Shown here in pieces: positions 47,912-51,547 of a stretch of DNA of 51,547 bases. The DNA is from Synergistaceae bacterium (lineage in GTDB: Bacteria; Synergistota; Synergistia; Synergistales; Aminobacteriaceae): contig JAFSJJ010000018.1 of NCBI GenBank assembly GCA_017439345.1, forward strand, positions 1-51,547, given 5' to 3'. A program made the translations under genes and the position numbers. Within the stretch, counting starts at the first letter, position 1, and every line of letters starts with the position of its first letter. Under the pieces are notes generated by a model that saw nothing but the letters and a program-made list of their open reading frames with translations, did not search any database and had not been told where the DNA came from.

Positions 47912-48142
47912 TAATCAGCAAAATTACAGGTGCAAAACTTGCGAGAATAAATTAAATTTCGCAGTGAAAATAGTAATTAGAGTTAATGAATAATATACTT
48001 CACTTCATTATCCTGCCTCGTTATCATTTAACTTTAGCTTTTAACGTCAGCTTTAATTTTTTAATTTGTAATTTAATTTAATTCGTGTTTATTTATGATG
48101 TAAGCAAAAAATTTTATCGTTAAAAAAGGAGACTTTTATTTA

Positions 48143-48208
48143 TGAAGCGATTTATGTTGTTTTTGCTTCTTGTTGCGCTATTCACATTATGCCCCTCCCA
48201 TACCTAAG
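48143..48208 (+). CDS. signal-peptide reading frame, out of frame with the surface protein
   Basis: A well-placed AAAAGGAG and ATG start a 21-codon frame (KRFMLFLLLVALFTLC...) that stops at TAA 48206. Its hydrophobic core is a textbook signal peptide. The mature surface protein continues in another frame: adding one C to the CCCC run at 48192-48195 would read through into PYLSAFA/ELTEN with a proper cleavage site. As written, translation from this start ends early. Confidence 0.75.
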
Positions 48209-51200
48209 TGCTTTTGCTGAGTTAACTGAAAACGATAAGGCAACAATTAGCGATCAATCCGATAACAGCACACAATACACAGTTTACAAAGTATCAGACG
48301 GCTTTTATCAAGACGGCACAACTTACACAGCATCAACGAATTTCTATATCATAAACGAAGCAGGGCTAAAATATTTTCAAAAACTAGTAAGTGCTAGTGA
48401 CGCAATTAACGGCGGTGGCACTGTTGCGGATTATTATCATAGAGTCATTGAAAATAACGGTAATGCAAATGATGAAACTGTTAAGAGTTGGTATACAAAC
48501 AATGTTTTTAAAGAAAAGACCGTTCACCTTTTTGCAGATATTGACCTTAATAATCAAGACTGGACACCTATAGGATATGTAAACACAGCCTACAATAATA
48601 GTAGCTCTAAGACACAGTTTTACGGCCATTTCGATGGACACAATCACACAATCTCAAATCTGAAAATTGCTGCAAATCCCAAAAATGATAATTATAAAAG
48701 TAATGAACATTATGGTGAATATGGTCTGTTTGGAACAATTGGAAGTCAAGCAGGTCAAACATTCAGCAATCTTACAATTAATAACGTTACAGGAGTTGTC
48801 GGTGATACAGAAACAAATCTCGGATATGTAGGCATATTGATTGGTAACGCCGGAAGCAATGGTATCAACATCGAAAACTGCCACGTAACAGGAACGATTA
48901 ATCTTAATGGACTGTATGAAGTAGGCGGATTTTTCGGCATTGGAAAAGTAAGTGTAAAAAATTGTTCTATTAATGCTGATTCAGGCAGCAAGATTTCATC
49001 TACTTATTATGCTGGAGCTCTAGCAGGCTGCACAAGATCGGTAAGTAGCATTACAGACAGTACAGTAAGCGGAGTTACTATTACTGCACCTTATTCTGGA
49101 GGTATGGTAGGACTTGGAAGCGGCACTTTAAGTATCAACAAAGGAAGTGTCAGCAACGCTAAAATTACAGGAACTGAAGTAGCAGGAAGTGTTATTGCAT
49201 GGGGGTCTAACACAACAATTTCAGACGTTTCAATAGCCGATAACTTAGAAGTTATTGAAAGTGATAAACCTACAACAAAGAAGAACGGATATTCAGTAGC
49301 TGCAATAAACGGTACAGAGTATAGTAGCCTTCAATCCGCTTTCACCGCTGCCACTGACGGCGACACAATTACACTTCTTGCAGATATAACGCTCTCTTCA
49401 ACAGCCCGCCTTGACAAAGCAATTACATGCACCCTTGACGGTGACGGAAAAATTATCTCAAGGGCTGATGATGCAAATTTCACTTCCGACGGTGCCGTAT
49501 GCTTCGGAAGTGTAGGCGATCATAAAGATGACATCGGGAAAAAAGTTTTTACAGTTAAGAACGTTACATTCAGCAAATTCAAAGAGGAAATCATACGATC
49601 TGAAAATTGTACTTTGACTTTTGACGGATGTACTTTCACTGATAATAATATTACTGCAAACAGCGGACGGGGTAGGCATTTAATTCTCTTTACTCAGGTA
49701 ATCGGAACAGTGAAAAATTCTGTGTTCACTAATAATTCTGCTGATATGTGTATTAACTTTAACAGTCAGCTTCAAGACGCAGGTGCACTGAACGTCTCTC
49801 ATAATGACTTCAGCGAGAACAACATAACAGGCACAGGAGTGATTTTCACTAACGGTTCTCCAGGAGAAGATGCCATTCAATATAACGACTTCGAGAATAA
49901 CAAGATAAATGCATCTTCCGGAGCAGTTATATATTGCAGCGGAATAGTAGAGTCCCTGACAAATAATTTATTCTCAGGCAATATAATAACTACGACCAGT
50001 GCAACCGGCAAAAATGGAGTTATAGCTCTCGGAAGCAAATCAACAAATACAGTTATTAACAAGAATGCATTTGTTAATAATACTTCAACAAGCGCAGAAA
50101 AATTCGGGACAATCTACGTAGGAAACTCTAAGACCGATGTAAGCAGCAATTACTGGGATGACGGCCAGGCACCTGAGACAGGCGAGAATAAAGACATCTA
50201 CAACTCAGACAACGGAGAAATAATTAATAATGATTATGCAGTCAGCTATACACGTGCAGAAAACTGCGGAGTCAATGTTACTCTTCCGTCATTTGTTCTG
50301 ACACCTCCGGCAGCAATTGAAGGACTCGTATATAACGGTTCGGCTCAAAAATTAATCACAGCAGGAACATCATCAGGAGGAACGTTATATTATGCTCTTG
50401 GAACAAGTTCAACAACTGTACCGGCTGAAGACTGGAGCGAAAATATTCCGGAAGGCACTGACTCTAAAGAATATTACGTCTGGTATAAAGTAACAGGCAG
50501 TGAGGGATACGCTGACACTGAACCAGTCTGCATTATAGTAAAAATATCTGAAGCCCTCCCGAAAATTTCTGACGCTAGCATAACAGTTACTCAAGGACAG
50601 ACTAAGACTCTTGAGATAAGCGACTCTACAGGTTCAGGGACTCGAACATGGACTCTTAATTCAGACGCTCCGGACTGGGTGAAGCTCGCAGAGGACTCTG
50701 ACAGCAAAGCGACTCTAACAGTGAGTCCAAGCTCAAGCATCAATGCAGGCTCTTATTCGTGCAATGTTACTGTAACGAACGCTGACAGCAAGACTTCAAC
50801 CGCAAAGATAAGCATTACAGTAGAGAAGGACACTTCGGGCGGCTCTGACGAGAATAATGACTCGAACGGTGGCAGCGGCTCTGAAGATAACAACGACTCT
50901 AACTCCGACTCATCTAATGAAGACACTTCACAAACTCTTGATGATTATCTTGACAGCTTCGGTTCTGAAGAGAAGGCTACTATGACGGAACTCAAATTAA
51001 CTCAGGAACAGAAAAGCTCATTAACGGACTCTCAGCTATCGACTATATTAACTGAATTCACAGCACTTGAGACTCTTGACTTGAGCGGAAGCACTCAAAT
51101 AACGAAACTTGACGCTCAGGGCAGCGAGACTCTAAGCTCAATCAACCTCGAAGGCTGCGAAAATCTCTCTAACGTTGACTTGGGCGGATGTTCGTCTCTC

Positions 51201-51547
51201 AGTGAAATAAAAGGTCTCAGCGGAAATACAACTCTGAAAACTTTAGACACAAGCGGATGTTCTGCACTTGAGTCACTCGATGTAAGCAACTGCACGGGCC
51301 TCACTTCTCTTGACTGTTCGGGAAGCTCATTAGGGAGTCTTACTGTCGGGGGCTGTACTTCTCTTGTGAGTCTTAACTGCAGAAATAATAAACTTGAATC
51401 ACTCACTGCTGACGACTGCGAGTCACTTGAGACTCTTGAATGCGGTTCTAACGGAATGAGTAAATTGAGTCTCAAAGGCTGCTTGAACCTGCAAAAATTA
51501 TACTGTTACAGCAACAATCTTGAAAGTCTTGAAGTTCCGAGTCAAAA
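48189..51547 (+). CDS. large surface protein: GLUG, beta-helix, Ig-like and LRR regions; partial (3' end off window)
   Basis: Open from ATG 48189 to the window end, about 1119 codons. Order: a GLUG-like region at ~100-350 (DIDLNNQDWTPIG, FYGHFDGHNHTISNLKI, repeats such as SGGMVGLGSG), a right-handed beta-helix at ~375-680 beginning YSSLQSAFTAATDGDTITLL, an Ig-like stretch (~684-787), a second Ig-like domain starting ITVTQGQTKTLEI (~790-878), a Gly/Ser/Asp/Asn-rich linker, then leucine-rich repeats from ~932 (LETLDLSGS, LKTLDTSGC, LESLDVSNC). This is adhesin-like architecture. ATG 48189 has no ribosome-binding site; the real start is probably 48143, one base out of frame, so the protein is exported only if the frame is restored. 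Confidence 0.85.
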   Translation, partial: MPLPYLSAFAELTENDKATISDQSDNSTQYTVYKVSDGFYQDGTTYTASTNFYIINEAGLKYFQKLVSASDAINGGGTVADYYHRVIENNGNANDETVKSWYTNNVFKEKTVHLFADIDLNNQDWTPIGYVNTAYNNSSSKTQFYGHFDGHNHTISNLKIAANPKNDNYKSNEHYGEYGLFGTIGSQAGQTFSNLTINNVTGVVGDTETNLGYVGILIGNAGSNGINIENCHVTGTINLNGLYEVGGFFGIGKVSVKNCSINADSGSKISSTYYAGALAGCTRSVSSITDSTVSGVTITAPYSGGMVGLGSGTLSINKGSVSNAKITGTEVAGSVIAWGSNTTISDVSIADNLEVIESDKPTTKKNGYSVAAINGTEYSSLQSAFTAATDGDTITLLADITLSSTARLDKAITCTLDGDGKIISRADDANFTSDGAVCFGSVGDHKDDIGKKVFTVKNVTFSKFKEEIIRSENCTLTFDGCTFTDNNITANSGRGRHLILFTQVIGTVKNSVFTNNSADMCINFNSQLQDAGALNVSHNDFSENNITGTGVIFTNGSPGEDAIQYNDFENNKINASSGAVIYCSGIVESLTNNLFSGNIITTTSATGKNGVIALGSKSTNTVINKNAFVNNTSTSAEKFGTIYVGNSKTDVSSNYWDDGQAPETGENKDIYNSDNGEIINNDYAVSYTRAENCGVNVTLPSFVLTPPAAIEGLVYNGSAQKLITAGTSSGGTLYYALGTSSTTVPAEDWSENIPEGTDSKEYYVWYKVTGSEGYADTEPVCIIVKISEALPKISDASITVTQGQTKTLEISDSTGSGTRTWTLNSDAPDWVKLAEDSDSKATLTVSPSSSINAGSYSCNVTVTNADSKTSTAKISITVEKDTSGGSDENNDSNGGSGSEDNNDSNSDSSNEDTSQTLDDYLDSFGSEEKATMTELKLTQEQKSSLTDSQLSTILTEFTALETLDLSGSTQITKLDAQGSETLSSINLEGCENLSNVDLGGCSSLSEIKGLSGNTTLKTLDTSGCSALESLDVSNCTGLTSLDCSGSSLGSLTVGGCTSLVSLNCRNNKLESLTADDCESLETLECGSNGMSKLSLKGCLNLQKLYCYSNNLESLEVPSQ

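Follow-up and report, generated by a model that had tools for sequence, protein, structure and literature searches.

Phase variation at homopolymeric tracts is usually attributed to chance slippage within a run of identical bases that has no partner sequence. The signal-peptide region of Neisseria gonorrhoeae pilC contains a homo-guanine tract, and changes in the length of this tract break the reading frame and so switch a surface-associated protein on and off (PMC5354566). Many poly-G/C tracts per genome make up the "phasomes" of Neisseria (PMC5953494) and of Campylobacter (PMC8355987). In Listeria monocytogenes, a frameshift in a 5′ poly(A) tract of inlA truncates a leucine-rich-repeat (LRR) surface protein after a few codons (PMC2831843). 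The open-access literature yielded no paper on Synergistota phase variation, which is weak evidence of absence.

The window analyzed here is a stretch of 51,547 nt from a Synergistaceae bacterium whose assembly is a MAG consensus of 46 contigs and 2.54 Mb; the nearest homologues of its AzlC are in ruminant Synergistaceae MAGs. A surface-protein locus lies at the right end of the window, with azlC, azlD, clpC and ctsR as its upstream neighbors (clpC was named by eye from the sequence), and all features of this locus are on the + strand. A Shine-Dalgarno sequence, AAGGAG (48126-48131), lies 10 nt ahead of an ATG at 48142-48144, which opens a signal-peptide frame (48142-48207) that reads MKRFMLFLLLVALFTLCPSHT and ends after 21 codons at a TAA stop (48205-48207). 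The first-pass annotation had recognized the ribosome-binding site, the signal peptide and the stop after 21 codons, but its coordinate for the ATG, 48143, is off by one base. A second frame, one position apart from the first, is open for 1119 codons from the ATG at 48189 to the contig end at 51547 and encodes the mature surface protein, with leucine-rich repeats and a Rib-like domain (an LRR_4 and a weak RibLong match in Pfam). The contig ends inside the leucine-rich repeats, and the C-terminus of the protein is missing. This frame has an open upstream extension (48099-48188), and no ATG, GTG or TTG occurs in it upstream of 48189 back to its limit at 48099. Both the open second frame and the one-base separation of the frames had been described as we find them.

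The two frames meet at CCCCTCCC (48192-48199), an eight-base stretch of composition C4-T-C3. The CCCC to which attention had been drawn is indeed at 48192-48195, but it is only part of this longer stretch. Over both strands of the 51.5-kb window, no other C/G stretch of at least eight bases with a single interruption occurs; the window has no uninterrupted C/G run of at least seven. As in contingency loci, the tract is positioned where its length determines the reading frame of the surface-protein gene, but such loci have an uninterrupted hypermutable tract of about eight or more bases, and C4-T-C3 falls short of this. The layout resembles that of pilC in having a homopolymeric C/G tract within the signal-peptide region, although the two proteins are unrelated and the window has a short tract with an interruption. 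It is like inlA in that a frameshift within a homopolymer at the 5′ end breaks an LRR surface protein; however, the inlA tract is poly(A) and not C/G, and it lies outside any genus-wide set of motif-flanked tracts.

The same genome carries a paralogue on contig C17 that shares 58, 64 and 49% amino acid identity with the window protein in three C-terminal stretches and whose C-terminus is a cysteine followed by a hydrophobic tail. Its start region is built like that of the window, with a similar signal peptide and an identical spacing of 10 nt between GGAG and ATG. In C17, an uninterrupted C12 follows a TTATG shared with the window, and its frames are mismatched too; the window's C4-T-C3 occupies the exact place of this long homopolymer and, to judge from the paralogues, was presumably derived from a longer C run. 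Comparison of the window gene with C17 gives dN/dS values of 0.25 and 0.19, with dS saturated and the divergence older than the frame break. When the N-terminal region was searched against 40 relatives, three genomes gave matches, all of them weak domain matches, and searches of relatives and genome contigs found no orthologue of the window gene in another species and no sister strain. The starts of contigs C33, C37, C17 and C44, like the window end at 51547, fall within related surface genes with leucine-rich repeats, and this gene family is therefore a place where the assembly breaks.

A pattern search of the assembly located 53 C/G tracts of 8-15 bases in the 2.54-Mb genome, 37 of them at least 10 bases long (tract lengths rest on the assembled sequence). 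They lie in signal peptides, in glycosyltransferase-type genes (recognized by eye from translations) and in promoter regions; C17, C5:116678, C12:98236, C36:87444 and C8:74481 are signal-peptide tracts of large surface proteins. Tracts within genes and promoters, in surface-protein and glycosyltransferase-type genes, are likewise reported for Neisseria (PMC5953494) and Campylobacter (PMC8355987). Among the 34 tracts judged intragenic, 8 are in frame and 26 shifted, near the 1:2 expected from random phase, as is normal when a phasome is seen in a single consensus. A few intergenic tracts sit between TTGACA and TATAAT-like boxes. One of these is a G15 tract (L222:2991-3005, contig C41:131589) with surface-protein-like genes diverging on both sides, and its position between the promoter boxes means that its length would set promoter spacing. 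A genus-wide search for an ATG-to-C8 pattern was excluded as an enrichment test, since overlapping matches to one tract confound it.

One gene with such a tract deserves separate mention. On contig C45 (L076:1478-3787, minus strand), a predicted surface protein has a signal-peptide-like start followed by a ubiquitin domain very near eukaryotic ubiquitin (Pfam ubiquitin, 2.6e-30), and continues with List-Bact repeats, leucine-rich repeats and a GGC-plus-hydrophobic tail; its gene has a G9 tract and the genus motif described below at the 5′ end. The nine ubiquitin repeats suggested by phmmer are an artefact of poly-ubiquitin targets, as Pfam finds one domain. The sole NCBIfam match obtained in the analysis, to an LRR model, fell far short of the cutoff and was disregarded.

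When all tracts are oriented to read C, the sequence GTANAATTACKKA starts 5-9 nt 3′ of the C run at most of them, and TA or TG stands directly ahead of the run at most of them. This motif has a log-likelihood of 182, whereas shuffled flanks reach 59 ± 3 and the opposite flank reaches 57. Its discovery and its first scoring both used the same 53 tracts, and independent support comes from a genus-wide pattern search. In that search, C7-D-N{2,12}-WWTTACKNA had 174 matches in 43 genomes of the genus and the reversed control pattern had 7, compared with 14 for each in 140 other Synergistales genomes (sums were made by hand from the table). The motif is absent from the tracts of other genera (G138, G119, G071 and G063); G042, another species of the genus, has it in a looser but recognizable form. 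The pairing of tract and motif is thus found, within the searched genomes, only in this genus. Motif carriers comprise 5/5 of the coding tracts that read C in the sense strand, 22/29 of those that read G and 13/19 of the intergenic tracts, and each of the three reading phases is represented among the motifs (10, 5 and 7 cases). Because it is equally strong in both gene directions and between genes, and in every phase, it is a feature of the DNA and not of the protein or the direction of transcription. For the same reason, its strength being equal inside genes in both directions, a promoter −10 element alone is an insufficient account of it and was rejected. It could be a recognized target, an inserted cassette or the product of an unusual mutational bias. 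Two intergenic tracts, L230:3027 and L089:560, which lie ahead of related surface-protein genes, have the motif at offset 0 after the C run instead of the usual 5-9 nt. We know of no report of a motif beside the Neisseria tracts. The Synergistaceae genus differs from Campylobacter and Neisseria in adding a motif at fixed distance and on a fixed strand regardless of gene direction, and it belongs to a different phylum. Our search of the open-access literature found no paper on a motif beside such tracts, itself weak evidence of absence.

The window tract may be a worn member of this class. It is preceded by TG, and at offset 8 it is followed by GTGCTTTTGCTGA (48208-48220), a weak match to the motif (5.4 bits, where the median of the tracts is about 10) that is equalled at 1.9% of random positions within offsets 5-10 (p about 0.02). 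This flank resembles GTGCATTTTACTGA, the flank of tract C25:76501, and a 17-nt distance to CTGAG is common to both. A second interrupted tract, C6-T-C3, is present in a paralogue gene at C20:11066 beside a strong motif match (11.7 bits), and the sister genes of C20 (C5:116678 and C12:98236) have uninterrupted nine-base tracts at the same place. C20 is likewise out of frame, and another break of its frame lies downstream, which is what a copy unable to switch back would be expected to show. In the window gene all 1119 codons remain open, and its break is therefore either recent or was reversible until lately.

Taken together, it seems likely that the window locus is an on/off switch of the slipped-strand type, at present OFF, and that a C-to-T change has worn its tract to the point where switching is now rare. 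Judging from the frames, translation from the ATG at 48142 would produce half a signal peptide and stop at 48205-48207, and no surface protein would be exported in the OFF phase. Across the genome, the length of the poly-C or poly-G tracts would set the reading frame or, in some cases, promoter spacing. We infer switching itself from the tract lengths, flanking motif and paralogue observed in one MAG consensus, which cannot display both phases. The T interruption in C4-T-C3 should cut slippage by orders of magnitude, and because the tract is both too short and interrupted, the window gene has probably been left in the OFF state, as a worn or almost locked member of the repertoire. The slipped-strand layout proposed in the first-pass annotation gains strong support from the C12 of the paralogue, the 53 tracts of the genome and the genus-specific motif beside them, but a tract as short and interrupted as C4-T-C3 could not reach the switching rates of contingency loci.

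An assembly error of one base, with a real gene that is in frame and constitutively expressed, had been offered as an alternative and appears unlikely. The sequence is a MAG consensus from one genome, and the remaining frame is intact across 1119 codons; however, 40 intact neighboring genes contain 81 C/G runs of at least four bases with no visible break, and the window's break coincides exactly with the position of the C12 in C17 and adjoins the weak match to the genus motif. Slightly less likely again is a plain pseudogene, in which a random frameshift struck the signal peptide of a gene with no switch in its ancestry. C4 is not a hypermutable run, and the second frame break in the interrupted paralogue C20 indicates that worn copies do decay, but the position, the preceding TG, the eight-base C-rich stretch and the motif spacing all fit the tract class. 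Before the p value of the motif is considered, an interrupted tract would occur by chance in the sense stretch of 66 bases with a probability of about 0.002. This figure is based on 23 interrupted tracts counted in about 383 kb of retrieved loci, some of which overlap, and the rate is inflated by the choice of loci around tracts.

Programmed −1 ribosomal frameshifting at C-CCC, which would give a fixed share of exported protein, had also been suggested. A proline tRNA could re-pair after slipping one base backward on CCCC, but inspection finds no canonical X-XXY-YYZ slippery heptamer (frame 0 is TTA TGC CCC TCC CAT) and the downstream RNA fold is no more structured than shuffled sequences (z −0.51). 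To our knowledge there is no precedent for a −1 site 17 codons into a signal peptide, and we consider this explanation very improbable. Least credible is initiation at ATG 48189 to make a cytoplasmic protein; it is the sole usual start codon in the surface-protein frame, but it is not preceded by a ribosome-binding site, and the protein, although it has surface-protein domains, would lack a full signal peptide; its paralogue moreover has the cysteine and hydrophobic tail noted above.

A worn slipped-strand switch thus remains our preferred reading of the locus. It is possible, although we hold the idea only tentatively, that the tracts are more than products of chance slippage and are targets of a sequence-guided system, in which a factor reads GTANAATTACKKA on one side of the C strand and makes the tract, extends it or builds it anew; the window would then be a decaying site whose tract is already lost. 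Switch sites would in that case be actively made or kept in genes, for example by a nickase, a polymerase or a terminal-transferase-like activity. Two near-complete genomes of the same genus, G020 and G015, have zero or one tract of at least 10 bases, as against 58 in G048 (G044 and G017 are also rich in tracts), and they are a natural contrast in which to seek a tract-making gene.

The window gene is only a worn member of its set, and as such an example of how switches of this kind die. With its tracts, an uncultured, ruminant-associated genus of Synergistaceae would join the bacteria that have large phasomes, and the asymmetric motif present at most tracts of the genus would make it testable whether such tracts are created or maintained by dedicated machinery.
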